Shown: positions 6,504-42,708 of the stretch, piece by piece | Layout of the letters: each line of letters opens with the position of its first letter | Position numbering within the stretch: position 1 is the stretch's first letter | NCBI GenBank assembly: GCA_031266515.1 | Contig: JAISAW010000087.1 | Span: 1 to 42,708 of the forward strand | Source of the DNA: Eubacteriales Family XIII. Incertae Sedis bacterium | GTDB taxonomy: Bacteria > Bacillota > Clostridia > Peptostreptococcales > Anaerovoracaceae | DNA: 42,708 nucleotides | Reading direction: 5' to 3' | Program-made: the position numbers and the translations under genes | The notes under the pieces: generated by a model | Seen by the model: the letters and a program-made list of their open reading frames with translations, nothing else | What the model was told of the DNA's origin: nothing | Databases searched by the model: none

Positions 6504-6837
6504 GAAATTATTACCCCGGCAGCAAATAGCAGGAAGTCGCGCCGGTCTTTCCGCTAATCTGCTTTGTTGGCGAAATCCTTACATACTGCCCGCTTAGGAT
6601 GAGACTCGTCTTCGACTCGCAGCTGCTTAGGATGAGACTCGTCTTCGACTCGCAGCTGCTTAGGATGAGACTCGTCTTCGACTCGCAGCTGCTTAGGATG
6701 AGACTCGTCTTCGACTCGCAGCTGCTTAGGATGAGACTCACTTCGTTCGCAGCTATATGCGCGGTTTCGCCGCCGCGCATATCAGCTGAAACCCTCGGCA
6801 CTTTATTCCTGCTATTTGTTGCCGGGGTAATAACTTT
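6504..6837. mobile_element. MITE-like element with ~32-bp near-perfect terminal inverted repeats
   Basis: Left end gaaattattaccccggcagcaaatagcaggaa (6504-6535) against right end ttcctgctatttgttgccggggtaataacttt (6806-6837), inverted with about 2 mismatches. No transposase inside. Confidence 0.6.
6592..6754. repeat. 33-bp tandem repeat, 4 perfect copies + 1 degenerate copy
   Basis: Unit gcttaggatgagactcgtcttcgactcgcagct at 6592, 6625, 6658 and 6691; fifth degenerate copy 6724-6754. Confidence 0.95.
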
Positions 6838-11131: not shown

Positions 11132-11746
11132 ATGGAAATCACACTTGAAAAGATCGAATTGGTAAAAGACCGGACAGGAGTCAGCTATAAGGAAGCAAAG
11201 GACGCTCTTGAAGCGACCGAAGGCAATGTTGTAGATGCCATAATCAAGATCGAAGAGGAAATCAATGAAAAGGTCGGGAAAAGGGTCACCGACAAAGGAG
11301 AGGCCCTCGTCGCAAAGATCAAGGAGTATATCAAGAAAGGCAATATCTCCAAGATAGTTGTGAAAAAAGACGATGAAGTATTCCTAAGGGTCCCCGTCAC
11401 CGTCGGGGTAGTCGGCACTGTCCTCGCGCCATGGGTGACGGCGATCGGCGCTATTGCCGCGCTCGGCGCCAAGTGCACTGTGGTGCTCATCAAAGACGAC
11501 GGCGATATCATTGACCTCTCAGGCCTTGCAAACGACACCATCGACGACGTCAAAGACAGCGTCAAGGATGCCGCAGGGAAAGCAGGCGCCGTAAAGGACG
11601 GGGTCGCCGACAACATAGACGATATCAAAGATATCGTGAAGGACGCGGCAAGCCAGATCAAGGATACCGTAGCGAAGGGCAGGGAAGAATCCGCAGATGT
11701 CGTGGCTGAAGCGGGCGACGAGCCCGAAGAAGAGCCGAACGACTGA
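11132..11746 (+). CDS. DUF4342-like protein with UBA-like N-terminus
   Basis: ITLEKIELVKDRTGVSYKEAKDALEATEGNVVDAII (UBA-like), hydrophobic VPVTVGVVGTVLAPWVTAIGAIAALG, acidic tail. Confidence 0.7.
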   Translation: MEITLEKIELVKDRTGVSYKEAKDALEATEGNVVDAIIKIEEEINEKVGKRVTDKGEALVAKIKEYIKKGNISKIVVKKDDEVFLRVPVTVGVVGTVLAPWVTAIGAIAALGAKCTVVLIKDDGDIIDLSGLANDTIDDVKDSVKDAAGKAGAVKDGVADNIDDIKDIVKDAASQIKDTVAKGREESADVVAEAGDEPEEEPND

Positions 11747-11802
11747 CCCGGGATCCCCTGCAATATGGTTCGCCATAACATAAATTAGAAAGCAGCAAAA
11801 TA

Positions 11803-13203
11803 ATGACAGAAGTGAGTATGGAGAAAGTCGTGGCTCTTTGCAAGAGCCGCGGCTTCATATATCCGGGTTCGGATATTTATGGCGGGCTGGCCAACAGCTG
11901 GGACTACGGCCCGCTCGGAGTGGAGCTGAAAAACAACATCAAAAAAGCGTGGTGGAAAAAATTCGTGCAGGAGAGCCCGTACAATGTGGGGCTTGACGCC
12001 GCGATTTTGATGAACAAAGAAGTCTGGGTGGCGTCCGGCCATGCTGCAGGGTTTTCCGACCCGCTTGTCGACTGCCGGTCATGCAAGAGCAGGTTCCGCG
12101 CGGACAAGCTGATTGAAGGCCATATGGCGAAAGCGGGGGAAGAATCTGTCGCCGTTGACGGATGGCCGAATGAAAAGATGGAATCGTACCTGGAAGAACA
12201 TGCAGTGAAATGCCCTGAGTGCGGCAAGAGCGATTTCACTGGCATCCGGCAGTTCAATCTGATGTTCCGCACCCATGCGGGGGTCACTGAAGACAGCGCA
12301 AACGAACTTTATCTGCGCCCTGAAACGGCGCAGGGGATCTTTGTAAACTTCGCAAACGTGCAGCGGACTTCGCGAAAAAAAATCCCTTTTGGGATAGGCC
12401 AGATAGGCAAGTCGTTCCGAAATGAGATCACGCCGGGCAACTTCATATTCAGGACCCGTGAGTTCGAACAGATGGAGCTTGAGTTTTTCTGCAAGCCGGG
12501 GACTGATCTCGAATGGTTTTCATACTGGAAAAATTTCTGTGCGGACTTCCTCAGGGCGCTCGGCATCAAAGACGAAAGGTTCAGGCTTCGCGACCACGGC
12601 GAGGAAGAGCTCTCGCACTACAGCGCGGCTACCACGGACATAGAGTTCCTCTTCCCATTCGGGTGGGGGGAGCTGTGGGGGATCGCCGACCGTACTGACT
12701 TTGATTTGAAGAGCCATATGGAACATTCAAAAAAGGATCTTTCATACAGGGATCCCGAGACAAATGAAAAATACATCCCTTACTGCATCGAGCCTTCCCT
12801 CGGCGCGGACAGGGTGCTGCTCGCATTCCTCGTAAACGCTTACGGCGAAGAAGAGTTGCTTGATGAAAAAAGTACCGACGATGCGAGGACTGTGCTTCAC
12901 CTGCACCCGGCGCTTGCGCCTTTCAAAGCCGCAGTGCTGCCGCTTACGAAAAAGCAAGCCGCCAAAGCTGAAGAGGTATACGCGGATTTGTCGAAGCATT
13001 TCATTATCGACTACGACGCTTCGGGAAATATCGGCAAGCGCTACCGCAGGGAAGACGAGATCGGGACACCCTTCTGTATCACGATAGACTTTGATACCGA
13101 GACGGATGAAACCGTCACAATAAGGGACCGCGATACCATGGAGCAGGAGAGAGTCGGCATATCCGGGCTGAAAGAGTATATTGAAAGCAAATTGGAGTTT
13201 TAG
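11803..13203 (+). CDS. glyS: Glycyl-tRNA synthetase (single-chain type)
   Basis: [82 protein letters not shown]. Confidence 0.97.
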
Positions 13204-27929: not shown

Positions 27930-29012
27930 ATGGATTGCGGGACATGGGAAAGAAGGCTGTATGACGGTGAGCCGTATATCAGCGGGGAACAGCCGGATGC
28001 GGAGGTGCTCACAAAACTGAACTCCAACGAAAATCCGTATCCGCCGTCGGCTGCGGTGTTGGCGGCGATAGCTGGTTTTGACGGCGGTCAGCTGAGGCTG
28101 TATCCCCGTAGTGACGGCGGAACGCTGAGGGCTGCGCTCGCAGACCTTCATGGGGTGCCGCGCGAACGCGTATTTGTCGGCAACGGATCAGACGAAGTGC
28201 TTGCGCTTGCGTTCAGGGCCTGTTTCGGAGGGGAAGGCGGCATACTCTTTCCTGACATCACGTATTCCTTTTATCCCGTGTGGTGCGATTTTTTTGGAAT
28301 CGGGTTTGAAACGCGGCCTTTGGATGGGGCGTACAGGATAAATGCGGACGACTACGCCGGAGAGAAGCGCGGCGTAGTGATAGCAAACCCGAACGCGCCG
28401 ACGGGTATAGGCGAAGGCGAGGGCTTCATCAAAAAGATAATGGAGGCGAGCCCGGGCTGCGTCGTGATCGTAGATGAAGCTTATGCCGATTTCTCGGAAT
28501 ACTCGGCGGTGCCGCTCGTGGACAGATATCCGAATCTGCTCGTGACGAGGACATTTTCGAAGTCAAGGTCGCTCGCAGGGATGAGGATCGGATACGCTGT
28601 CGGAAGCCCTCGTACCATCGAGGCCCTCAAAGCCGCAAAGGATTCTTTCAATTCCTATCCGATAGACAGCGTTGCGATAGCCGCCGGCGTCGCAGCCCTT
28701 GGAGACAGCGGCTATTATTCGGACAGGATCGGGGAGCTTAAGCAGACGAGGGATTTGTCGGTGGAAAAGCTTTCGCGGCTCGGGTTCAAAGTCCTCCCGT
28801 CGCAGGCAAACTTCATCATGGTTTCCCCGCCGGCCGGCAGCGCCGAAGGCCTGTTTCTCCATCTCAGGGAAAAGAGGATATTCGTCCGCTATTTCGCCGG
28901 GGAACGGCTGAAAGATTTTCTAAGGATAACCATAGGAACGCCGGAGCAGATGGACGCTTTGATATCGGAAGCGGAGGGCTACGTCTCGGGCGGACGGAGC
29001 GCCGGCACTTGA
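27930..29012 (+). CDS. hisC: Histidinol-phosphate aminotransferase-like PLP enzyme
   Basis: LNSNENPYPPS; VGNGSDEVLALAFRA; NPNAPTG; VDEAYADFSE; TFSKSRSLAGMRIGYA. Confidence 0.85.
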   Translation: MDCGTWERRLYDGEPYISGEQPDAEVLTKLNSNENPYPPSAAVLAAIAGFDGGQLRLYPRSDGGTLRAALADLHGVPRERVFVGNGSDEVLALAFRACFGGEGGILFPDITYSFYPVWCDFFGIGFETRPLDGAYRINADDYAGEKRGVVIANPNAPTGIGEGEGFIKKIMEASPGCVVIVDEAYADFSEYSAVPLVDRYPNLLVTRTFSKSRSLAGMRIGYAVGSPRTIEALKAAKDSFNSYPIDSVAIAAGVAALGDSGYYSDRIGELKQTRDLSVEKLSRLGFKVLPSQANFIMVSPPAGSAEGLFLHLREKRIFVRYFAGERLKDFLRITIGTPEQMDALISEAEGYVSGGRSAGT

Positions 29013-29037
29013 GCCTTCCGGCAGTGGAGTCGTTCAC

Positions 29038-30681
29038 TTGAAAAGAAAAACGGTAATGCACGGTGCGATAATACTCAGTGTCGCGGGCATATTTTCCAAA
29101 GTGCTTGGTGCCTGTTTCAGGATACCTCTGGGAAACATGATCGGCGCGGACGGCATGGGCTACTATCAGGCTGTCTACCCGATCTACATACTTCTGCTCA
29201 CAATAGCGACTACAGGCATACCCGTCGCGATTTCGCGGATGGTCTCGGAACGGCTTGTCGCGGGGGACCGCGGCGGGGCACAGAGGGTATTTCGGGTGAC
29301 CCTCGTCATAATGTCCATACTGGGCGCGGCACTGTTTGCTGTCATGTTCATAGGCGCGGAATACATCACTTCGAACATAAAAGACATGGAGGGGTCGGTA
29401 TACGCGATGAAAGCCATCGCCCCGGCTCTCCTCATCGTCCCTGTCATGGCGACATTCAGGGGATACTTCCAGGGCTCGCAAAACATGAAGCCCACTGCCG
29501 TATCCCAGATCACAGAGCAGCTTTTCAGGGTCACTATAGGCTTGATAGCCGCCTATGCGCTCCTTTCGGCGGGAAAGAATTTTGCCGCAGCGGGCGCTAC
29601 GTTCGGGGCTACCGCCGGCTCGCTGGCCGGGCTTGCGGCCATTTTCTTTATTTATAAAAGGTACAGGAGCAGCGTGAATTTTCGCGGCAGGCGCGAAGAG
29701 ACAAGACAGGCAAAAAACCTTCGCCGCGAGAGTACCGGCAATATCATCGCCACGCTGTTTGTGATCGCCGCGCCCATCACCCTCGGAGCAGCCATCATGC
29801 CCGTGATGAACTTCATCGACGTGCACATAGTCACGAACCGCCTTGCGAACTCAGGGCTGGATGCCCTGCAGGTCAGGACTCTGTACGGCCAGTTGACGGG
29901 CTTTGCGCAGCCTATAGTGAACCTCCCTGATTTCCTGACGCAGGCTGTGGCCGTGAGTATGGTGCCGGCTGTGGTCAGGGCCTACAAGGCAAGGGACAGG
30001 GAGTTCCTTCACCTCAATGTCCAGCTTGGGCTCAGGTTTGCGATGATCGTAGGGCTGCCGTGCTCAGTCGGACTGATGCTTCTGTCCGAACCGATAATGA
30101 AGCTTATATATTTCAGGCAGCCGGCTGACGCCGCAGGCGCTGCGCCGAGCATGACGATACTCGCCGTGGGCATAGTATTCCTCTCCACTTATGAGACCAC
30201 GTCAGGGGCGCTGCAAGGGGTCGGAAAACAGATGATCCCTGTGCTGAACCTCGTCATCGGGGCCCTTGTAAAAATAATGCTGACGTATACGCTGACGAGC
30301 GTGAAAGCCCTGAACATCAAAGGCGCTGCCATCGGGACGGTGGCGGCCTTCATCGTGGCTATGGCGCTGAATTACAGGGCGGTGAAGATTTACACCGGGA
30401 CGCGTTTCGATATCTCAAAAACATTCCTGCGGCCGTTGCTGTCTGTCGCTGTCATGGGCATCGTGTGCAAGGGTGTGCACCTGCTTATGTCTCAATTTGT
30501 CGGAAGCCATATTGCGACTTTCATAGCGATCCTCCTGGCGGCCGTCGTATATTTCGTCATGATCTTCGCCACGAAGTCGATCCATATAAATGAGCTCAGG
30601 TATCTGCCCAAAGGGGATAAACTGACCAGGCTGTATCTGCGGACCCGAAGGAAATTCAAGAGGCGCAGGACCCGCCTGTAG
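29038..30681 (+). CDS. Polysaccharide biosynthesis/flippase protein of the SpoVB (YabM) family
   Basis: Multiple TM segments; GAIILSVAGIFSKVLGACFRIPLGNMIGADGMGYYQAVYPIYILLLTIATTGIPVAISRMVSE; follows mfd as in many Firmicutes. Confidence 0.88.
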   Translation: MKRKTVMHGAIILSVAGIFSKVLGACFRIPLGNMIGADGMGYYQAVYPIYILLLTIATTGIPVAISRMVSERLVAGDRGGAQRVFRVTLVIMSILGAALFAVMFIGAEYITSNIKDMEGSVYAMKAIAPALLIVPVMATFRGYFQGSQNMKPTAVSQITEQLFRVTIGLIAAYALLSAGKNFAAAGATFGATAGSLAGLAAIFFIYKRYRSSVNFRGRREETRQAKNLRRESTGNIIATLFVIAAPITLGAAIMPVMNFIDVHIVTNRLANSGLDALQVRTLYGQLTGFAQPIVNLPDFLTQAVAVSMVPAVVRAYKARDREFLHLNVQLGLRFAMIVGLPCSVGLMLLSEPIMKLIYFRQPADAAGAAPSMTILAVGIVFLSTYETTSGALQGVGKQMIPVLNLVIGALVKIMLTYTLTSVKALNIKGAAIGTVAAFIVAMALNYRAVKIYTGTRFDISKTFLRPLLSVAVMGIVCKGVHLLMSQFVGSHIATFIAILLAAVVYFVMIFATKSIHINELRYLPKGDKLTRLYLRTRRKFKRRRTRL

Positions 30682-31210: not shown

Positions 31211-31471
31211 ATGAGATTGGATAAATATTTAAAAGCATCGAGACTTATAAAGAGGCGTACCCTGGCAAAGAGCGCGTGTGACTCCGGCAGGGTACTCATA
31301 GGAGGCCGTGCCGCCAAGGCCGGCGCAGATGTAAAAGAAGGGGATGAGATCACGGTGCTTTTCGGCAACGGCGAGCTCGTGGCAAAGGTGCTTTCTCTGC
31401 GGGAAAGCGTCCGTAAAGAGGATGCGGCGCTGATGTATGAGATCATCTCCGGACGGAGGAATAGTAATTGA
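31211..31471 (+). CDS. S4-domain RNA-binding protein (YabO/RqcP/HslR family)
   Basis: MRLDKYLKASRLIKRRTLAKSACDSGRVLIGGRAAKAGADVKEGDEITVLFGNGELVAKV. Confidence 0.93.
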   Translation: MRLDKYLKASRLIKRRTLAKSACDSGRVLIGGRAAKAGADVKEGDEITVLFGNGELVAKVLSLRESVRKEDAALMYEIISGRRNSN

Positions 31472-32001
31472 AAAGCAGGTTTTCAGTGAAAAGTTTGGCC
31501 GTACTTGCGGTCTTGCTGGCGGTCAGGGTCGTGCTGAATATGCCGTTTCTGACCATCTATCTCACACCCCAGTTCAAGCTGATCACTTTCGCATATTTAG
31601 CGGACGCGATGGCGGCGATGCTCTTCGGGCCGTTTGCAGCCCTTGCTTTTGGCTTTGCAGGGGATTTTCTCGGTTTTCTCGTGAGCGGAGGGGGAGGTGC
31701 CTATTTCCCCGGCTTTGCCCTCAGCGAAATGATAACCTGCCTCATTTTCGCACTGTTCTTCCACAAGAGGGAGATCACCCTGCCAAAGATAGCGGCGGCG
31801 TGGTTCATAGACCTCGGCGTGGTATTGCTCGGGCTCAATTCGCTGTGGCTCATCGTCATGTATGGCATGGAAGCCGGAAGCGTGTTTACCTTCGCGAGGT
31901 TTGTCAGTAATATCGTCCAGTCGCCTGTACATATCATGATACTGTGGCTCGTGCTGGCAAAGGTCATGAACAGGGACAGCATCAAACGGCTCCTGCCCTG
32001 A
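31468..32001 (+). CDS. ECF transporter S component, folate (FolT)-like
   Basis: Hydrophobic ECF S component: NMPFLTIYLTPQFKLITFAYLADAMAAMLFGPFAALAFGFAGDFLGFLVSGGGGAYFPGFALSEM. Confidence 0.8.
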   Translation: MKSRFSVKSLAVLAVLLAVRVVLNMPFLTIYLTPQFKLITFAYLADAMAAMLFGPFAALAFGFAGDFLGFLVSGGGGAYFPGFALSEMITCLIFALFFHKREITLPKIAAAWFIDLGVVLLGLNSLWLIVMYGMEAGSVFTFARFVSNIVQSPVHIMILWLVLAKVMNRDSIKRLLP

Positions 32002-32021
32002 CAGCCTGAATAGAAATTACC

Positions 32022-32054
32022 GTATGTTGCAGTTCAAGCATACGTGTTTTTTTC
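32022..32054 (+). terminator. Likely terminator after the folT-like gene
   Basis: cgtatg...catacg stem followed by tgttttttt. Confidence 0.55.
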
Positions 32055-32206
32055 AGAACTTTATTGCATCGAGGTTGTAGAAGTCCACTGAGCGCGTGAC
32101 CTCGCGGCTGCCCTCGGTTTGAACTCTTTCCTTTATGGAAGGTATTCTCTCATACTGCTTAATTTGAAACGAGACGTGATTGCCTTGACGCTTACCTTTT
32201 TGTCCC
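32055..32206 (-). pseudogene. RhuM-family N-terminal fragment joined to the 73-bp repeat
   Basis: Minus-strand translation GQKGKRQGNHVSFQIKQYERIPSI-KERVQTEGSREVTRSVDFYNLDAIKF; the VQTEGSREVTRSVDFYNLDAI part is RhuM-like and then breaks off. Confidence 0.7.
32134..32206. repeat. 73-bp perfect direct repeat, left copy
   Basis: tatggaaggtattctctcatactgcttaatttgaaacgagacgtgattgccttgacgcttacctttttgtccc, identical to 41707-41779. Confidence 0.97.
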
Positions 32207-32216
32207 GCAGATATAT

Positions 32217-32306
32217 ACGGCAAGACAAAATAGAACCGTCCCATTTTTGTCGACGGCAAGACAAAATAGAACCGTCCCATTTTTGTCGAACCGTCCCATT
32301 TTTGTC
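32217..32306. repeat. REP-like array, 36-bp period (2 full units + partial)
   Basis: acggcaagacaaaatagaaccgtcccatttttgtcg twice, then aaccgtcccatttttgtc. Confidence 0.93.
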
Positions 32307-32356
32307 CTATCTGATCGACCTTATTTTTTTACTGGAAGTGTTTAAAACCCGGGCGG

Positions 32357-32941
32357 TTAACGCAGACCGTCAAACACGATATCGAGCATCCGGCCGACGC
32401 GCTTCCTGCACGCTTCTTCATCGTTTGGTTCAGTGAGCGGCGTTTCGTACAGTACGGAATAATAGACCCCGAGCAGACTGTCAACCGCTGTGTCGATCTC
32501 GATGTCCGCGCGGATGCTGCCCTCGGATTTTGCCTGTACGACAAGACAGATCAGCATGGAGCGGATACGCGCCTGCGTCTTGCCTGGTTCTTCCTCAAAG
32601 CTGTTGATCAGGAATACAATACGCCGCGTCAACACAAGGTAGGAAACGGCGTCAAGAATATAGGATTCAAGCAGCAGGCGGATACGTTCCGTTGCGCTCG
32701 CGTCCGTATCCACTGTCTCGGTGAACATCTTTTCGAGCGAAACCATTTCTTCCTCGGCGATACCGACGAGCAGGCTTCCCTTACTGGGGAAATAGTTATA
32801 GAGGGTCTGCCGCGCGACATGGGCGCTGTCAGCGATATCGTTCACCATCGTTTCTTCATAGCCGTTCTCGCGGAACATGTGGCGCGCCGTTTTCAGGATG
32901 CGTTCCCTCGTTCTGATTTTATTTCTTTCTCGCAATACCAT
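32357..32941 (-). CDS. TetR/AcrR-family transcriptional regulator
   Basis: RTRERILKTARHMFRENGYEETMVNDIADSAHVARQTLYNYFPSKGSLLVGI is a TetR HTH. Confidence 0.94.
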   Translation of the reverse strand: MVLRERNKIRTRERILKTARHMFRENGYEETMVNDIADSAHVARQTLYNYFPSKGSLLVGIAEEEMVSLEKMFTETVDTDASATERIRLLLESYILDAVSYLVLTRRIVFLINSFEEEPGKTQARIRSMLICLVVQAKSEGSIRADIEIDTAVDSLLGVYYSVLYETPLTEPNDEEACRKRVGRMLDIVFDGLR

Positions 32942-32989
32942 ACAGATAGTTTATAGAAAAGTGGATATCTGCACAAGCGGTTTTTGTTC

Positions 32990-33018
32990 TTGACTACATC
33001 TTTGGACTTGAGTATAGT
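32990..33018 (+). promoter_or_regulatory. Predicted sigma-A promoter of the RLP operon
   Basis: TTGACT (32990-32995), 17-bp spacer, TATAGT (33013-33018), in the TetR/aminotransferase divergent intergenic region. Confidence 0.65.
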
Positions 33019-33060
33019 AATCGTAACAAATTGAACTACTCTGACAACAGGGAGGTATAT

Positions 33061-34518
33061 ATGATTGACTTGACTAAAAAAGGGTATTCGATATCCTGTT
33101 GGCCTGATGAGAAAGCCATTTACGAGAAGATGGGCCTTTTGGTAAACGGGGCCGATTACCATCTCAAGCCGGAGGCTTTACGGGAATACATGGGATATTT
33201 TGAGATCAAATGTGCCGGCTCCAAAAAATTGAACGAAGAAGCGAAACAGTATATTCCAGGCGGCGTTCAGCACAATCTCGCGTTCAATACGCCGTTTCCG
33301 CTCGCGGCGGCCAAGGCGGAGGGCGCTTATCTTTACGACGTGGACGGCAACCGGTATGTTGATTATCTGCAAGCCGGCGGTCCGACGCTGCTCGGCAGCA
33401 ATTACGCGCCTGTGCGCGAAAAAGCTATCGAGGTCATCAGCGAGAGTTCGCCGTGCACGGGTCTTTTCCATGAATATGAGATGAAACTCGCGCAGGAAAT
33501 TAATAAGCATATGCCGTGGGTCGAACAATTCCGCGCGTTGGCGAGCGGCACGGAATCCGACATGCTCGCGCTCAGGGTCGCGCGTTGTTATACCGGCAAG
33601 AAGAAGATAATCAAGGCGGGTGGCGCCTATCACGGTTGGAGCGACCAGCTCGTCTACGGATTGCACATTCCGTTTACGGGCAATTTTGAATCGCACGGTA
33701 TCCCGGGAGAGTGCTATGCCAACACGCAGGAGTTTTTCCCGAACGACATCGAAGGACTTCGCAAACTTTTCGAAAAGAACGAAGCCGATGGCGGCACTGC
33801 GGCTGTTATCCTTGAACCGTTTGGTCCGGAAAGCGGCACGAGGCCGGTTACACAGACGTTCAATTATGAGGTGAGAAAGCTGTGCGACGAGTTCGGCGCA
33901 TTGCTCATCTTCGATGAAGTCGTCACCGGTTTCCGCGTGGGGCCGGGCGGCGCGGCCGGGTTCTTTGACATCAAGCCGGATCTTGTCGTCTTTGGCAAAA
34001 TCGTCGCGGGGGGCTATCCGGCGGCAGGCGGCATCGGCGGCAGCAAAGACGTTATGAGCGTGGTCGCGGCGGGCGTCGATACGAGCAAGCCGCGCGCATA
34101 TTGCGGAGGCACCCTTTCAGCCAACCCCTTGAGCTGCGCAGCCGGATATTACGCGATAAAGGAGATCGTGGAGCGTGACGCCGCGGCTAAGGCGGGCAAG
34201 GCCGGCGACAGGCTTACGGAAGGCATCAACAAACTGATCGACAAGTACGATCTGCCGTTTGTGGCATGGAATACGGGATCCATTGTGCATTTTGAAGTTT
34301 CCGGGATGATGTATGTCGATGTGCGCAGGGAGGATGCAATGCAGCAGCTTCACCTGAAACGCAAGCGTGTCGAGGAGTTCGGCGCCGCGCTCACCGCGAA
34401 TGGCGTCATCACTCTTGCCGGCAGCCGCATCTATACGAGTATGGCCGATGATGACGAAACGCTTCAGCTCACGCTTCGGGCGTTTGACGATGTCATGGGC
34501 AATCTGACGTTGAGTTAA
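33061..34518 (+). CDS. Class III PLP-dependent aminotransferase (glutamate-1-semialdehyde aminomutase-like)
   Basis: YIPGGVQHNLAFNTPFPLAAAKAEGAYLYDVDGNRYVDYLQAGGPTLLG; LASGTESDMLALRVARCYTGKKKIIKAGGAYHGWSD; LLIFDEVVTGFRVG; PDLVVFGKIVAGGYPAAGGIGG. Confidence 0.92.
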   Translation: MIDLTKKGYSISCWPDEKAIYEKMGLLVNGADYHLKPEALREYMGYFEIKCAGSKKLNEEAKQYIPGGVQHNLAFNTPFPLAAAKAEGAYLYDVDGNRYVDYLQAGGPTLLGSNYAPVREKAIEVISESSPCTGLFHEYEMKLAQEINKHMPWVEQFRALASGTESDMLALRVARCYTGKKKIIKAGGAYHGWSDQLVYGLHIPFTGNFESHGIPGECYANTQEFFPNDIEGLRKLFEKNEADGGTAAVILEPFGPESGTRPVTQTFNYEVRKLCDEFGALLIFDEVVTGFRVGPGGAAGFFDIKPDLVVFGKIVAGGYPAAGGIGGSKDVMSVVAAGVDTSKPRAYCGGTLSANPLSCAAGYYAIKEIVERDAAAKAGKAGDRLTEGINKLIDKYDLPFVAWNTGSIVHFEVSGMMYVDVRREDAMQQLHLKRKRVEEFGAALTANGVITLAGSRIYTSMADDDETLQLTLRAFDDVMGNLTLS

Positions 34519-34547
34519 TTGTATTTATTAGAGAAATGAGGTAAAAA

Positions 34548-35864
34548 ATGATCAGAAGACTTGAAGATGTGAACATGATGTACGCCTTTCCCGAGGTGGC
34601 GCTGGACGAAGGCTACGCGATCGGCACCTTCCAGGCCAAGGTGAAAACGAAGGACATCGAGAAGCTCGCAATGGCGATCGCCGATGAACAGACCACGGGT
34701 ACGTGGATAAAGGTCGGCGGCAGCTCGGATGAAAAGAACAAGATTTTCGGCGCGAAGGTCGTTTCGGTCTACGAGGTCCCGGACACCGCATCCGATTATA
34801 TGGCGGACGAACCGCCGATGTACCTCATACAAGTCGCCTTCCCCGTCAAGAATTTCGGAACCAGCATCCCGATGATGCTCTCAACAGTATTCGGCAACAT
34901 CTCCGCTTCGGGCATGCTCAAGTGGATTGACTGCGCGTTTCCGAAAAGCTATGTGGAGCAGTTCAAAGGACCGCAGTTTGGCGTGCAGGGCTTGCGCGAC
35001 GTGCTCAACATACCAGACCGACCGCTGCTCAACGCGATGATAAAACCCAATATCGGCTGGACGCCGGACGAGGGCGCGCAGATATTCTACGACACGGCGC
35101 GGGGCGGCGTGGACGTTATCAAAGATGACGAATTGTTGCCCGCAGACGAATCGTTCTGCCCGCTTAAAGAGCGTGTCACGAAATTCATGGCAATGGAAAA
35201 GAGAGCGTTTGAGGAGACAGGCGAACACACACTCTACGCGACAAACATCACGGACGATGTCGCGAAGATTCGCGATAACGCGCTCAGAGCTATCGAGTAC
35301 GGCACGAACTGCCTGATGATCAACGCGTACACGGCCGGGTTCAGCGCGCTGAAGATGCTTGCGGACGATCCCGACATCAACGTGCCGATTCTCGCGCATA
35401 TCGATTTTGTCGGCGCGATGGCCGGCAGCACGTACACCGGAATATCCGCGCCTCTGCTTATCGGAAAACTCGTGCGCCTCTCCGGCGGCGATTTCCAGAT
35501 CAACGGTCATCCGTGGGGCAAATTCCCCGTGCCGAATAAAATGTTCTTCCGCTCATTCAAATTCTTCACCCAGCCGTGGTGGAATATAAAGCCGATGATG
35601 TACGCGGCTTCGGGCGGCACGACGCAGCTTGCCGTACCACATATCATGAAGGCCGCGGGCACGGACGTCATTCTCGCCGCAGGCGGCGCTGTTCACGGGC
35701 ATCCGGACGGAAGTTTCGCGGGCGCTCGCTCGATGCGTCAAGCGATCGACGCGACGATGGACGGTATTTCTCTGCCGGAGGCGGCGAAGAAATACGAGGA
35801 GCTGGGCCGCATGGTCGCGTTCCTCGATCCGGATATTTTGAAGAACTTCGATCTGATGAATTAA
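34548..35864 (+). CDS. RuBisCO-like protein (form IV type)
   Basis: DEQTTGTW; FGNISASGMLKWIDCAFP; IKPNIGWTPDE; GGVDVIKDDELL; ASGGTTQLAVPHIMKAAGTDVILAAGGAVHGHPDG. Confidence 0.93.
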   Translation: MIRRLEDVNMMYAFPEVALDEGYAIGTFQAKVKTKDIEKLAMAIADEQTTGTWIKVGGSSDEKNKIFGAKVVSVYEVPDTASDYMADEPPMYLIQVAFPVKNFGTSIPMMLSTVFGNISASGMLKWIDCAFPKSYVEQFKGPQFGVQGLRDVLNIPDRPLLNAMIKPNIGWTPDEGAQIFYDTARGGVDVIKDDELLPADESFCPLKERVTKFMAMEKRAFEETGEHTLYATNITDDVAKIRDNALRAIEYGTNCLMINAYTAGFSALKMLADDPDINVPILAHIDFVGAMAGSTYTGISAPLLIGKLVRLSGGDFQINGHPWGKFPVPNKMFFRSFKFFTQPWWNIKPMMYAASGGTTQLAVPHIMKAAGTDVILAAGGAVHGHPDGSFAGARSMRQAIDATMDGISLPEAAKKYEELGRMVAFLDPDILKNFDLMN

Positions 35865-36508
35865 TGGCTATGTACGACACTATTGTATTTATAGACTTCG
35901 ATGGCACCGTGACGTCCGAGGAGACGCTCACGGGGTCATTGAAGCACCTCGATCCGCCGCCCGAAGGTGCGGCGGAAATCGAGCGCAAACTTACCGCGGG
36001 CGAATTGACGCTGAAAGAAGCGGTGACTTCCGTCTTTTCGTCCGTGCGGTCGGATCGGGTCGGCGAATTTACGCGATATATCAATTCCGTGCCGCTGCGG
36101 GCGGGATTCGGTGCGCTTTTGGACGCGCTTTGGTCGCGCGGTATCCCCGTCGTCATCGTGAGCGGCGGGCTTGACATTATGGTGAAGGAAAAACTCGCGC
36201 CGTACCGTGAGAAGCTGACGGATATTTGGGACGTTAAAGTCGATCTCTCCGAAGCGTATTTCAAGCTCGTCGCGGAACCGGAAGGGGAACTGGAGCTTAT
36301 CGACAAGGTCGCGGTTATGGGCAGATACACATACCGGCGCGCAGTCTGCATCGGCGACGGTTATACGGACATCCTGATGGCGCGAAACGCGGATGTGGTG
36401 TACGCGCGGGATGCGCTGGAGGTCTATCTCAAAGCGCATGACATACCGTATCGTCCATGGGAAGATTTCCGTGATATTTTGAAAGACGTTGAAAACAAAA
36501 ATGTTTGA
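35864..36508 (+). CDS. HAD-superfamily phosphatase, MtnX-like
   Basis: IVFIDFDGTVTSEETLTGSLKHLDPP; IPVVIVSGGLDIMVKEKLAP; CIGDGYTDILMARNADVVYARDALEVYL. Start overlaps the RLP stop (TAATG). Confidence 0.85.
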   Translation: MAMYDTIVFIDFDGTVTSEETLTGSLKHLDPPPEGAAEIERKLTAGELTLKEAVTSVFSSVRSDRVGEFTRYINSVPLRAGFGALLDALWSRGIPVVIVSGGLDIMVKEKLAPYREKLTDIWDVKVDLSEAYFKLVAEPEGELELIDKVAVMGRYTYRRAVCIGDGYTDILMARNADVVYARDALEVYLKAHDIPYRPWEDFRDILKDVENKNV

Positions 36509-36604
36509 AGTGTGATGAAATATAATATAATGTGACATATATGGAATAATTGTTTTGGCTGTCGGCGGCAGTTCATATGCCGTGACAGCGGAAATGAGGT
36601 AAAG

Positions 36605-37180
36605 GTGCGTGAAGTCGAACGAAAACTGAGAGTTGGAACGGCGGAGCAGGCACATATCGTCGATTTTTGTATGCGCGAAGGATTTACGGCTTTGGGCGAA
36701 ACTTCGCAGACAGACCTATATTTTACACCGTCAAACCGCAATATCTACGAGGAGGATATGGCTCTGAGGCTGCGTACCGATCGGATCTTCGGCGGGAAAG
36801 AAGAGTCAACGATAACATTCAAAGGGAAAGGACGCGATGACTCCTTTCACGACAGAACAGAAATCGAAACGGGCGTAGAGGACGGCAACGCGTTTGCCGG
36901 TATTCTGCGCTCGCTTGCATTTCAAGAGGTATTAACGGTCAGAAAGAAAAGGAGGTCTTATACAAAGGGCCCCGCCACGGTTTCGCTTGACGAAGTGGAG
37001 GGGCTCGGTTTTTTTGTTGAGGTGGAATATGTGGCGGAGGATACGGAAGCGGGTAAGGAACAGGCTGTCTCGGTGATCAACGGGCTGATCGAAAAGATGG
37101 ATATGGAATCTGCAGTGAACGAGCCGAAGAATTATCTGCAGCTTCTTGCTGCGAAAAAGATTGCGGAAGGGCGTGAATGA
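36605..37180 (+). CDS. CYTH-domain protein (CyaB/ThTPase-like)
   Basis: VREVERKLRVG (ExExK-type start); TDLYFTPSNRNIYEEDMALRLRTDRIFGGKEESTITFKGKG; VSLDEVEGLGFFVEVEYV. GTG start. Confidence 0.85.
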   Translation: MREVERKLRVGTAEQAHIVDFCMREGFTALGETSQTDLYFTPSNRNIYEEDMALRLRTDRIFGGKEESTITFKGKGRDDSFHDRTEIETGVEDGNAFAGILRSLAFQEVLTVRKKRRSYTKGPATVSLDEVEGLGFFVEVEYVAEDTEAGKEQAVSVINGLIEKMDMESAVNEPKNYLQLLAAKKIAEGRE

Positions 37181-38755
37181 ATGGAAGAACGATTAATAAT
37201 TGCCTATGATATGGGAACGACGGGCAATAAGGCATGCCTGTATTCACTCAGGGCTGGCGGCATTGAAAAGGTCGCCGAAAAACAGGTTCGGTATGGCGTG
37301 TCAATCCGTCCCGGAGGCGGCGTCGAGCAGAATCCTGAGGAACTTTGGGGCAGCATCCGCGGGGTGAGCAAAGCTTTGCTTTCGGAAACGGGGACTCGGC
37401 CCGAAGATATTGCGATGGTCTCATTTTGCACACAGATGCAGGCTGTCGTGCTTCTGGACAAGAACGGGAAACCCCTTCGCCCCATTATGAACTATATGGA
37501 TGAACGGGCCGCCGGCCAGTTTGAAAAATTCAACGAGGGGCCGATTCGAGTCGACGGGTTGAACGCGGTCAAAAACCTCGCGGCGATTCGCGAAAACGGC
37601 ATTACGGCCGCCAGCGCGAAAGACCCCGTTTACAAATACAAGTGGGTGCGTGAAAACGAGCCGGAAATTTTCTCGAAAATCTATAAATACGTGGATGTCG
37701 GAGGGTGGGTGTTGCATCGCTGTACCGGCAGGTATGTGACGACCGAGGACGTCGCGTATACCGCGCTCGTCTACGATGCCCGAGGGCATCATTGGAGTGA
37801 AAAGCTCTGCCGGATGCATCAGGTCGAGATGAGCCATCTGCCCGAAATCGTCGGCTCTACGGAATGCGTCGGAACCCTTACGGAAGCAGCGGCGGCGGAT
37901 ATGGGACTGACGACAAACTGCAAGGTCATAGGCGGCGGAGGCGATGTCGCGATGATCGCGCTTGGCGCCGGCTGCACGAAACTGGGCGACACGCTCGCCT
38001 ATATTGGGACTTCGGGCTGGGTGACGACGTGCGTCGACAAACTCGGCATTGACCTCGCCAACAGCATCGGTTCGACGGTGGGCGCGCAGCAGGGCGTTTA
38101 CCTGTATTTCGCCGAAATGGAACTCGCGGGCAAGAATATCGAATGGGCCAGAGATAATCTCATGCTCGACGGGGAAGGGGTTTACGCGGCAAAAGAATTA
38201 TCCGACGAGGATGTTATGCATAGAATCGGCGAGATCGCCGGCAGATCTTCTCCCGGCGCGGGCGGCGTCATTTTCATGCCGTATCTGCTCGGTAACAGAT
38301 GCCCTTTTGAGGATGTTTTCAGCCGCGCATCGTTCTACAACATCAGTTTGACGAACACCAAGGCGGATTTAATGCGCAGCGTTATTGAGAGCATAGCATA
38401 CCATATGTATTGGATGATCGAGCTGATTGAGAAGAAGAAACCGATGAATAACACCTTGCGGATTATCGGGGGAGGAGCGAAATCGGATCTTCTGTGTCAG
38501 ATACTCGCCGATATGAGCGGTCGCACCACAGAGCGTACAAGAGAACCACAGAACGCCGGTGTGCTTGGTGCGGGAATTCTTGCCGCAAATCATTTCGGGT
38601 ATCTCGATTCGCTTGAGGATGCCAAACGTCTCGCGCAGGTAGGGGATGTATTCGTGCCTGATCCTGAAACGAGAGGCCACTATATGAAAAACTATCAGAT
38701 CTATAAGCAGTGGCCAGCGCAAAACAAGAAAAATTTCAGATTTTTGAATAAATAA
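37181..38755 (+). CDS. FGGY-family carbohydrate kinase
   Basis: LIIAYDMGTTGNKACLYSL; GGGVEQNPEELWGSI; LRPIMNYMDERA; AYIGTSGWVTT; LRIIGGGAKSDLLCQILADMSG. Start abuts the CYTH stop. Confidence 0.92.
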   Translation: MEERLIIAYDMGTTGNKACLYSLRAGGIEKVAEKQVRYGVSIRPGGGVEQNPEELWGSIRGVSKALLSETGTRPEDIAMVSFCTQMQAVVLLDKNGKPLRPIMNYMDERAAGQFEKFNEGPIRVDGLNAVKNLAAIRENGITAASAKDPVYKYKWVRENEPEIFSKIYKYVDVGGWVLHRCTGRYVTTEDVAYTALVYDARGHHWSEKLCRMHQVEMSHLPEIVGSTECVGTLTEAAAADMGLTTNCKVIGGGGDVAMIALGAGCTKLGDTLAYIGTSGWVTTCVDKLGIDLANSIGSTVGAQQGVYLYFAEMELAGKNIEWARDNLMLDGEGVYAAKELSDEDVMHRIGEIAGRSSPGAGGVIFMPYLLGNRCPFEDVFSRASFYNISLTNTKADLMRSVIESIAYHMYWMIELIEKKKPMNNTLRIIGGGAKSDLLCQILADMSGRTTERTREPQNAGVLGAGILAANHFGYLDSLEDAKRLAQVGDVFVPDPETRGHYMKNYQIYKQWPAQNKKNFRFLNK

Positions 38756-38790
38756 GATACAGCAAAACGGGGGAAGACGGCCGGGAAACG

Positions 38791-39855
38791 GTGAAAAGCA
38801 AAATGGATAAGAATACGGCAAAAGAGCAAGTAGTTCGCGCGGGACGCGAGCTTGTGGCGAAAAGGCTTGTGGCTCGTACCTGGGGCAATGTGAGTTGCCG
38901 CTGCGATGAGCATATGTTTGTCATCACGCCGAGCGGCATTGGTTATGAGCGTCTAACGCCCGATTTGATCGTGGCTGTAGACACGCGGGATGGATCTTAT
39001 CAGGGTGATGTCGCTCCTTCTTCGGAATACAAGATGCATACTGCGATTTATAGCGCCCGTCCGGATGTCGGCTTTATTATCCATACGCACCAAACTTATG
39101 CGACGTGCATAGGCCTTGCGGATCTTGAAAGGCTTGCGCCGACGCCGGAAGAGACGAAACGGCTTGGCGGATCGATCGGTATTGCTGAATATGCTTTCCC
39201 CGGCACCAACAAACTCAAAGAGAACGTGAAAAAGGAGATTGCAGTGAGAGGCGGCGTTGTACTCATGAAGCGACATGGCGCAATCGCTGTCGGTGATACC
39301 TCTGATAAAGCATTCGGCCGCGCCAATCTGCTCGAAGAAGTGGCAAAGCGTGCGATGCCGGGTATTGTCTATGCCGCAGACGAGCCTGCGGCTACAGCTT
39401 CGCGCCCTTCCGGCGGAAACGGTCATTGCGGCGCTGAGGCCGAAGATCATATCGCTCCATACGCGGCGGCAATTTTCGCGCGACACGCCGATGTTTCGCA
39501 GATACTGCTTTTGAATTCACCGTCAACCGTGGCGGTGATGGATCGGAGGCGCGCAATTCCCGCGCTGATAGATGATTACGCGTTCATTGTCGGGACGGAC
39601 GCGAAGGTAGTTGATCCGATTCCCGAAAAGGCTGCTGCCGCGCTTTCAAGCAGATCCGCAGTTTTCGTCCGAGGTCTTGGCGCACTCTGCTGCGCCGCAG
39701 AACTTTCTGACGCGGAGGCCGTCATGATGTTGGTCGAAAAGAACGTGATGGCTCTGCGCGCGGCCGAACAATACGGAAAAATCAAGGCAATCCCGTATTG
39801 GGAGCGGCTGCTGTTAAGGCAGGTATACGTATCGAAATACTCAAAGAAGAAGTAG
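38791..39855 (+). CDS. Class II aldolase/adducin-family protein with a degenerate second domain
   Basis: LVARTWGNVSCRC; ITPSGIGYERLTPD; IIHTHQTYAT; VLMKRHGAIAVGDT (metal His present). The C-terminal half repeats the fold pattern without them (ILLLNSPSTVAV; VFVRGLGALCCAAELSD). Confidence 0.87.
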   Translation: MKSKMDKNTAKEQVVRAGRELVAKRLVARTWGNVSCRCDEHMFVITPSGIGYERLTPDLIVAVDTRDGSYQGDVAPSSEYKMHTAIYSARPDVGFIIHTHQTYATCIGLADLERLAPTPEETKRLGGSIGIAEYAFPGTNKLKENVKKEIAVRGGVVLMKRHGAIAVGDTSDKAFGRANLLEEVAKRAMPGIVYAADEPAATASRPSGGNGHCGAEAEDHIAPYAAAIFARHADVSQILLLNSPSTVAVMDRRRAIPALIDDYAFIVGTDAKVVDPIPEKAAAALSSRSAVFVRGLGALCCAAELSDAEAVMMLVEKNVMALRAAEQYGKIKAIPYWERLLLRQVYVSKYSKKK

Positions 39856-39913
39856 CAGGTGGTTCCATTTAATTAGGACTTGAGCTAAAGAAGTCTGAAG
39901 GAAGGCGAGTACG

Positions 39914-41152
39914 ATGAAACAGCAGGATGATTATAAGGTATACGGTTATCGTTGGGTGGTATTAGCGCTTTATGTCGCAGTCGCAACCATGATTCAGATT
40001 ATGTGGGCCACTTTTTTCGCCATTACGCTTGAAGCGGGCGCCTATTACGGCTTTGCGGCAGACGAGGCGGAATCGGCAATCAGTCTCTTTTCGATTATCT
40101 TCATGATTGGAATGATTGTGGTCTCCATACCATCTTTCGCGATGTTTGAGAAGTGGGGTTACAAAAAATCCGTCGGTTTCGGTGTGATACTCATGACAAT
40201 CGGAGCTATGTTGCGAGGCATCTTCGGGCATAATTATACGATTGTCCTGATTTGCACCATCCTGTTTGCTATTGCGCAACCCTTCATATTGAACGCGGTC
40301 GGTCTTGTCGCGGGCAAATGGTTCCCCGCAAAAGAACGTGCTACCGCGAACGGACTGGGACTGCTTTCAAATTATGTAGGCATCATGATAGGCCTGATCC
40401 TTGTACCGGTGATTCTGTCCGGAGGCACGGATATCCAGGGTATGCTAATGATCCTTGGCATTGTCGCCGCGATCTTTTCAGCGTTGTTTTGCATATTCAC
40501 CAAAGAGGCACCACCTACGCCACCATGTGCTGATGAGGACTATGTACGCGAAAAGTTTCTCAGCGGTATGAAGCAGTTGTTCAAGAAAAAAGATTTCATC
40601 AAAATAATGCTCGCGTTCTTTCTGACACTCGGTGTGTTTAACGTGTTTTTCACTCTCATCGAGCCGATTCTCCAATCTTTCGGAGGGAGCGTGATCAACT
40701 CCGTACAGGTCGGAATTATCGGAGTCATTATGCTTATCATGGCAATCGTTGGCAGCGTTGTGATTCCGATGCTGTCGGATAAAGACAGGCATCAGCGAAG
40801 AAAGCCATACATGGTACTCGGTATGGCTCTTGGGACATTGGGTCTCGGCTTTATGATAGTGTCACACAGCTTCGGTATGTTGACCACGTTCGCTATAGTC
40901 TATGGCTTGTTTGGTATCGGCGCCGGTCCAATCACTATGACGCTCGCGGCGGAGATAGGGTATCCTACAAGCGAGGGAACCTCGGAAGGTTTACTGTTGC
41001 TCGCGGGCAATATCGCGGGCGCGGTTTTCCTGATTGCTGCCGATGTTTTCAGCGGGAACTATACCGCGCTGATGATTGCGCTGACCGCGATGGATCTGAT
41101 TGCACTCGCGCTCATGATCGCTACAAGAGAAAAGAAAAAAGATGTAGCATAA
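39914..41152 (+). CDS. MFS transporter
   Basis: About 12 hydrophobic segments; YRWVVLALYVAVATMIQIMWATFFAITLEAGAYYG; FEKWGYKKSVGFGVILMTIGAMLRG; KWFPAKERATANGLGLLSNYVG. Confidence 0.92.
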   Translation: MKQQDDYKVYGYRWVVLALYVAVATMIQIMWATFFAITLEAGAYYGFAADEAESAISLFSIIFMIGMIVVSIPSFAMFEKWGYKKSVGFGVILMTIGAMLRGIFGHNYTIVLICTILFAIAQPFILNAVGLVAGKWFPAKERATANGLGLLSNYVGIMIGLILVPVILSGGTDIQGMLMILGIVAAIFSALFCIFTKEAPPTPPCADEDYVREKFLSGMKQLFKKKDFIKIMLAFFLTLGVFNVFFTLIEPILQSFGGSVINSVQVGIIGVIMLIMAIVGSVVIPMLSDKDRHQRRKPYMVLGMALGTLGLGFMIVSHSFGMLTTFAIVYGLFGIGAGPITMTLAAEIGYPTSEGTSEGLLLLAGNIAGAVFLIAADVFSGNYTALMIALTAMDLIALALMIATREKKKDVA

Positions 41153-41179
41153 TCTCGTTTTCGACACTTGCAAAACTAA

Positions 41180-41222
41180 AGACAGGCACAAACCCACTAA
41201 AATAGCGGGTTTGTGCCTGTCT
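41180..41222. repeat. Perfect 16-bp stem inverted repeat
   Basis: agacaggcacaaaccc - actaaaatagc - gggtttgtgcctgtct. No T-tract follows. Confidence 0.9.
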
Positions 41223-41365
41223 GAGACATTACAGAATGTTGTATAAAAATCCTGTTTCGAAAGTTTTTTAATTTTTTTATTCAACTCCTTCGGAAGGTAA
41301 TATTTCTTGTCCAGACCAAGGGCATAAACACTGTTGATCGCCGTGCATACCTGGCTCCCCTTGTC

Positions 41366-41442
41366 TGCCCTTTTTGTCTATTAAGGGCGTCCCAACAAGC
41401 CAAAATAGAACCGTCCCATTTTTGTCTCCCTTTTTGTCTGCA
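41366..41442. repeat. REP-like sequences inside the rhuM remnant
   Basis: gccaaaatagaaccgtcccatttttgtctccctttttgtc, matching the core of the 32217 array. Confidence 0.8.
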
Positions 41443-41805
41443 CGCTGTGTCTGACAAAGCCTGTTCGGAGCGGGAAACGCGCCCCTTGCCCTCAAAAACC
41501 TTACGGCGGTTGTTAGTGAGGAAGCGGTCAGTCTCACTGAGCCAGTCCGCCATGCTCATCAGCACCTCATCCTCCGCCATCAGTTCCGCGTAGTAGATGA
41601 ACATTGTAACAATGCGGTTCAAGCGGTAAAGTTCCTTCTCGTTGAGGTAGTTCTTTGCCACGGATACGTCCCGTTTGATGATTTTACTATCCGGAGCGGC
41701 CTTCCATATGGAAGGTATTCTCTCATACTGCTTAATTTGAAACGAGACGTGATTGCCTTGACGCTTACCTTTTTGTCCCAAATAAAAAATCATGTTCCAA
41801 CTCAT
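41440..41805 (-). pseudogene. RhuM-family C-terminal fragment joined to the 73-bp repeat
   Basis: IPSI-WKAAPDSKIIKRDVSVAKNYLNEKELYRLNRIVTMFIYYAELMAEDEVLMSMADWLSETDRFLTNNRRKVFEGKGRVS; the frame then runs into REP-like sequence. Confidence 0.72.
41707..41779. repeat. 73-bp perfect direct repeat, right copy
   Basis: Identical to 32134-32206. Confidence 0.97.
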
Positions 41806-42188
41806 TTTCCCGCCATGGTTTTGTCCGGTGGGGATCCGGCCTTGAATTTCGCGTTCTTATTGACGTATCGCAGCCACTTGGCCACACCGAGCAGATAGAA
41901 GGTGAGAACCGCCAGAATTATACCCAATCGCGCACGATCGCTTATCGCAGGAGGCGTAAAGAACGCGAAAAAAAATACTGCGAGCAAAAAAATGCCCGTC
42001 ACAATACAGAATATGCCCGACGAGCGAAACAGCGCATCCCGGTTCCATACCGCCCGTTCCTGTTCATTCATGGTGTTCCATCCCGAAAGCAGCTTATCGC
42101 CGCGCCCGGTGTAGAATGCCACGCCCATCGCGAGGCAAAGTGCGCAGCACAGAAAGGCAATTATGATTCCCGCTATCATTGCTTTCAC
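41802..42188 (-). CDS. DUF3784-like membrane protein
   Basis: Three hydrophobic segments; LLSGWNTMNEQERAVWNRDALFRSSGIFCIVTGIFLL. Confidence 0.7.
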   Translation of the reverse strand: MKAMIAGIIIAFLCCALCLAMGVAFYTGRGDKLLSGWNTMNEQERAVWNRDALFRSSGIFCIVTGIFLLAVFFFAFFTPPAISDRARLGIILAVLTFYLLGVAKWLRYVNKNAKFKAGSPPDKTMAGK

Positions 42189-42237
42189 GTTCCTTTATCC
42201 ATACGTTACGCCTCTTATCGCTTGATTTTATCACAAA

Positions 42238-42408
42238 TGGCAGGATTTCATCTTTGCCTGCAATCCCTATCCGCTGTATGACCAAAGTTTTTTAGACAAT
42301 GTGCGCGCCGAAGCAGAGGACAATATTCGCCGTCTGCGCCATCGGGCGAGCCTTGCGCCGTGGTGCGGGAACAATGAAGCGGAGGTCTGCGTCAGGTCCT
42401 GGCAATAA
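42238..42408 (+). pseudogene. GH2 beta-mannosidase internal fragment
   Basis: Read directly, no start codon: WQDFIFACNPYPLYDQSFLDNVRAEAEDNIRRLRHRASLAPWCGNNEAEVCVRSWQ*; matches the conserved KWQDF.FA..YP...F...V..EAE.N..RLRHH.SLALWCGNNE region. Confidence 0.75.
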
Positions 42409-42446
42409 TATATCAATTGGCAAAATACGAAAGCTCAAGGATTTTC

Positions 42447-42540
42447 GGGACAAAAAGGGGACGACAAAAAGGGGACGGTTCAAAGGGGACAAAAAGGGGA
42501 CGGTTCGACAAAAAGGGGACGGTTCTATTTTGTCTTGCCG
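42447..42540. repeat. REP-like array in inverted orientation relative to the 32217 array
   Basis: gggacaaaaaggggacgacaaaaaggggacggttc...gacaaaaaggggacggttctattttgtcttgccg; its reverse complement matches cggcaagacaaaatagaaccgtccc. Confidence 0.92.
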
Positions 42541-42708
42541 TTCATCATGTCATATTTTATTTTTGCCCCAACTCTCAACAACCCCCTTGCCTAAACCCGT
42601 CACCCTTGCGATTTGGCGGATTGGTATAAGGCTCCCCCTCATTTCCATTGCGATTCGTCGTTGCTCCCCTATCGGCATCTTTTGAAAATCGCTTGTGTTC
42701 CGGGCCCC

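Follow-up and report, generated by a model that had tools for sequence, protein, structure and literature searches.

The perfect 73-bp direct repeat (R) that brackets a RuBisCO-like-protein gene cluster in the window (the whole stretch of 42,708 nucleotides that was analyzed) is probably debris and not the edge of acquired DNA. The cluster itself, from a TetR-family regulator gene to an MFS transporter gene (termed the islet; Table 1), is probably a horizontally acquired catabolic cluster, based on sequence comparison. In the reading that we prefer, and to which we assign an even chance of being correct, R is the remnant of a duplicated and decayed junction between a RhuM gene and REP-like sequence, with the acquired islet located at a junction of host and foreign DNA. 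Repeat-flanked acquired gene clusters are a known kind of structure. In the present case a whole RuBisCO-like-protein catabolic cluster was apparently transferred between genera of one family, and the landing place keeps a readable scar consisting of RhuM relics, REP-like units and R. Because composition and gene relics indicate a foreign block that reaches past one copy of R, the true edges of a cluster need not lie at the perfect direct repeats that enclose it.

Table 1. Features of the islet and its borders, in order of position in the window.
Feature	Position	Strand	Remarks
Folate-family ECF transporter S component, host-side left flank	31468..32001	+	TIGR04518; host-like composition
RhuM relic, N-terminal piece, directly adjoining R copy 1	32062..32133	-	VQTEGSREVTRSVDFYNLDAI, then stop; PF13310 positions 7-29
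R copy 1, 73 bp	32134..32206		Exact identity with copy 2; two copies in genome
Three REP-like units, inner side of R copy 1	32217..32306
TetR-family regulator	32357..32941	-	PF00440
Class III aminotransferase (GSA-aminomutase-like)	33031..34518	+	PF00202
RuBisCO-like protein	34548..35864	+	PF00016, PF02788
HAD phosphatase, MtnX-like but sub-cutoff	35840..36508	+	PF12710 (on longer frame from 35576)
CYTH-domain protein (class IV adenylate cyclase model)	36605..37180	+	PF01928; TIGR00318 above cut-off
FGGY carbohydrate kinase	37181..38755	+	PF00370, PF02782
Class II aldolase-family protein	38791..39855	+	PF00596
MFS transporter	39914..41152	+	PF07690
REP-like unit, sub-variant AGAACCGTCCCATTTTTGTC, between MFS gene and RhuM relic	41396..41439
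RhuM relic, C-terminal piece, directly adjoining R copy 2	41461..41706	-	PF13310 positions 155-233
R copy 2, 73 bp	41707..41779		Exact identity with copy 1; two copies in genome
DUF3784 gene, right flank	41802..42188	-	PF12650; rare in family, foreign-like composition
Beta-mannosidase gene fragment, right flank	42237..42385	+	80.5% nt to G001:C95 (region likely conserved)
Inverted REP-like array, outside R copy 2	42444..42537

Comparison of the two copies of R revealed no mismatch, and identity ended at the first base beyond the 73 bp on both sides. The copies are 9573 bp apart, start to start, with the TetR-to-MFS genes in between; on position, identity and spacing the initial annotation was thus borne out. 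Chance was rejected as an explanation, since about 2e-35 exact 73-mer repeats would be expected in 42.7 kb. R occurs twice in the host assembly (G000; a metagenome-assembled genome, MAG, of 1.79 Mb in 147 contigs, 82% complete). No match of note was found among 98 relatives and none in plasmids and phages, and exact sub-patterns of R were absent from viral contigs and from approximately 85,000 species genomes. These counts show that R is no high-copy sequence dispersed over the genome, the kind of sequence which, according to the initial annotation, would speak against a role in acquisition. A search of positions 31900-42708 against Rfam gave no match, and R translated in three readings gave no meaningful match in Pfam.

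Judged by its matches, R is a composite of 12 bp of REP-like sequence, some 54 bp for which the searches returned no source and about 7 bp matching RhuM. The outer 12 bp (CCTTTTTGTCCC) resemble a REP-like motif dispersed in the host genome; on the minus strand R starts with GGGACAAAAAGG, 12 bases which are also present in the REP-like array at 42486-42497. The final seven bases (TTCCATA) extend the RhuM homology of the fragment adjoining copy 1 with six of seven matching, an overlap which is short (estimated chance about 0.001). Comparison of R with RhuM homologue loci, at the nucleotide and the peptide level, gave a match limited to this 7-bp edge, so the core of R is not RhuM. Nor is R itself a REP or REPIN, which are defined by high copy number and a palindromic unit: it has two copies, and no inverted repeat was detected inside it at the settings of the scan. 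The longest palindrome of the window, with 16 bp (CCTTCCATATGGAAGG), spans the junction at copy 2 (41700-41715); it was dropped as a meaningful feature because about 0.65 palindromes of such length are expected by chance (estimate).

The two copies of R are joined to different pieces of a RhuM gene. The relic at copy 1 is weak by profile and below cut-off (PF13310, E 0.056), with 92% amino acid and 85% nucleotide identity to the RhuM-gene homologues L068/L070 (the amino acid value being that for L068). The relic at copy 2 is above the curated cut-off (PF13310, E 5e-22) and has 81-85% nucleotide identity to L068-L070. L068 and L070 are the top homologues common to both relics. Assignment to PF13310 was thus by profile at copy 2 and through the RhuM homologues at copy 1; the likeness to this family lies in the matches of both relics, and the difference is that two short fragments remain here and no working gene. 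Both relics share one frame relative to R, read through R on the minus strand. Their profile positions do not overlap (Table 1), so that a full duplicate of the RhuM gene is not proven. The fusion of R to two different pieces points to duplication and decay, and not to the clean footprint of recombination that had been proposed at first. The minus strand has a 174-codon open frame (41281-41805) in which R and a RhuM fragment are combined and which extends into REP-like sequence; this chimera should not be taken for an intact gene in annotation. Host contig C78 (L060; 1226-2298 and 9832-10569) bears both a complete RhuM gene, of another subtype, and a second homologue of the class III aminotransferase gene, 66-81% identical at the nucleotide level in patches. 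Literature searches on RhuM with repeat-flanked islands and on recombination repeat-length limits gave no directly relevant result.

REP-like units lie immediately inside both copies of R, and the exact form AGAACCGTCCCATTTTTGTC was found solely at the islet ends (32232, 32268 and 41407). The dispersed motif (GAACCGTCCC[A/C]TTTTTGTC) occurs 30 times in the host genome at two or fewer mismatches, and on host contig C67 inverted arrays of this motif stand on either side of a Y1-transposase gene of the RAYT type. REP/RAYT systems are repetitive extragenic palindromes with REP-associated tyrosine transposases (e.g. PMC2817692, PMC8266576). The host resembles them in having its Y1-transposase gene between inverted arrays of GGACGGTTC-type units, which also stand beside both copies of R; it differs in the low dispersed copy number of the units, and in that R is REP-like in 12 bp only and is two-copy. 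Units with one mismatch at most are present in G000 and absent from G001, the nearest relative in the comparison set, and the islet and its right flank therefore sit in a G000-type genome. Given the RhuM relics and REP-like units at R, the islet borders are gene debris and not orderly element ends.

From the observed repeat, the two fragments of one RhuM gene type, the REP context and the foreign character of the DNA, we infer the following mechanism and order of events. The islet would be a horizontally acquired catabolic cluster at a host/foreign junction beside the host HU-S4-ECF genes, and R would be the stretch that two copies of one RhuM-gene/REP junction, both decayed, still have in common. 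The duplicated segment would have run from a REP-like motif through the approximately 54 bp of the R core into the RhuM gene, and may have been copied without inversion from the side of copy 2 to the host junction, during or after acquisition. Possible routes are template switching, or recombination between REP-like motifs giving a tandem duplication that later collapsed. Subsequent deletions would have removed RhuM positions 5-154 (approximately) at copy 2 and everything beyond position 29 at copy 1. The copies of R are identical despite the heavy decay of both flanks, so this mechanism needs a recent duplication.

Acquisition of the islet is suggested by three lines of evidence, namely its identity to G001, its composition and the gene order shared with relatives that lack it, and to this extent the initial annotation of R as an acquisition footprint is supported. 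G001, which served as the composition reference, belongs to another genus and is a single 72%-complete MAG. Islet proteins are 76-96% identical to those of G001, compared to 32-64% for seven backbone proteins; for DNA the corresponding values are 82% for the islet and 65-70% for the few alignable backbone stretches. In a fourth-order Markov comparison of G001 against G000 with same-size host controls, the islet scored -0.8, while 17 host controls of 9.5 kb had a mean of -22.1 (sd 2.9) and a maximum of -16.3. The murJ-HU-S4-ECF block is without the islet in four relatives at genus-level distance (G001, G012, G014 and G030), in three of which the contig stops soon after the block. In G001 the TetR end of the islet adjoins other genes, an MFS and a TRAP-type transporter, based on a reading of translations. 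The two islet contigs of G001 are short and mis-binning is possible; in composition they are closer to G001 than to G000. A glyS query gave no match in G001 and is uninformative.

The ECF gene has the same orientation as the HU and S4 genes here and is inverted in the four relatives, which means that rearrangement also affected the host side. Three relatives (L187, L188 and L189) have an amidohydrolase-like gene between hisC and murJ that is missing here (29012-29038). In G014 a gene pair read from its translations as IS21-like is located between murJ and HU (L187, 5316-7324), near the position where the host genome bears its insertion.

The outer sides of the two copies of R are not alike. 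Composition is host-like in the left flank as far as the ECF gene (-25.3) and foreign-like in the right flank past copy 2 (41780-42440; +0.6, a value matched or exceeded by 0.7% of same-size host controls). The DUF3784 gene on this side has two other matches, 25-27% identical, among 349 genomes of the family. The beta-mannosidase fragment matches part of an 871-codon open frame in G001, which was read from its sequence as a glycoside hydrolase family 2 enzyme. The contig stops at 42,708, about 0.9 kb to the right of copy 2, so the foreign character there rests on one short stretch. With foreign-like DNA outside copy 2, the acquired block seems to extend rightward past R, which is probably not its right edge. 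The proposal that R brackets the whole acquired unit was accordingly not upheld, on the grounds of the composition of this flank, the rarity of its DUF3784 gene and the similarity of its beta-mannosidase fragment to G001. The islet resembles direct-repeat-flanked islets formed by homologous or illegitimate recombination in its foreign-like cluster, in the short direct repeats near its ends and in the absence of an integrase of its own. It differs in the apparent continuation of foreign DNA beyond one repeat and in the fusion of each repeat to a different fragment of one dead gene.

These edges bear directly on a Campbell-type acquisition, in which a circle with both the islet and R would have recombined at a lone R in the chromosome to leave R-islet-R, with RecA-dependent loss possible. 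Such a route would account for perfect repeats in the same orientation around a complete-looking cluster, for an acquired cluster coinciding with a two-copy R, and for the order of the RhuM pieces, which is that expected if two different RhuM relics had crossed over at R. The route predicts, however, that host DNA lies outside each repeat, and with foreign-like DNA and a DUF3784 gene rare in the family past copy 2, this copy is not evidently a boundary between host and insert. The route also needs R in both donor and recipient, and R was found in no other genome searched. We consider this route possible but doubtful.

An assembly artefact, with host DNA mis-joined at a short repeat to a contig of a G001-like organism, was judged quite unlikely. 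The host assembly is an incomplete MAG in many contigs, and the composition step near R copy 1 persists almost to the contig end, as a mis-join would predict. On the foreign-like side, however, a REP-like unit (42507-42526) is identical to units on host contigs C64, C76 and C103, and G001 has no REP-like unit at fewer than two mismatches. Moreover, the islet DNA, being just 82% identical to G001, is not from a contig of that organism.

We consider very unlikely an undescribed small mobile element, for instance one mobilized by REP/RAYT, that has R as its conserved end and inserted twice in a RhuM gene region. The REP-like 12-mer at one end of R and the RAYT-type gene with matching REP arrays in the genome fit such an element. 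Two copies in the genome and none elsewhere in the searches do not, and neither a terminal inverted repeat nor a target-site duplication was seen around R. A composite transposon or transposon end was rejected, as no transposase was found among the genes identified at the ends and R is two-copy; an integrase-driven island or ICE with an attachment site was likewise rejected, with no tRNA in the window and no integrase found. The genes identified in the islet are those for a regulator, enzymes and a transporter only.

Whatever its origin, R is a direct repeat 9.6 kb apart, and homologous, RecA-dependent loop-out between its copies is possible in principle. A length of 73 bp is near the lower limit of those that RecA uses efficiently. 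That R is a functional recombination unit, through which the cluster is integrated, tandemly amplified or lost by way of R and REP-like motifs, seems to us highly improbable; if true, these bacteria would have in REP/RAYT debris a platform on which metabolic clusters are exchanged as cassettes.

Within the islet, the best NCBIfam match of the RuBisCO-like protein is the MtnW enolase, below cut-off. Across the family its gene (34548-35864; relatives L055-L059 and L148-L153) co-occurs with that for an MtnX-like phosphatase. The usual further partner is a class III aminotransferase; TetR, FGGY kinase and MFS transporter genes are frequent partners, and the order varies. From this gene context it seems likely that the RuBisCO-like gene and its partners form a pathway of their own; literature searches on RuBisCO-like clusters gave no directly relevant result. 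Directly 3' of the MFS gene (41180-41222) there is a 20-bp inverted repeat (AGACAGGCACAAACCCACTA...) with 95% complementarity and no T run after it. Elsewhere in the window, an intergenic 33-bp unit is repeated about four times head-to-tail at 6592-6740, and its surroundings (6508-6590 and 6756-6834) are 95-96% identical to contig C78 (L060) near 11655-11819.
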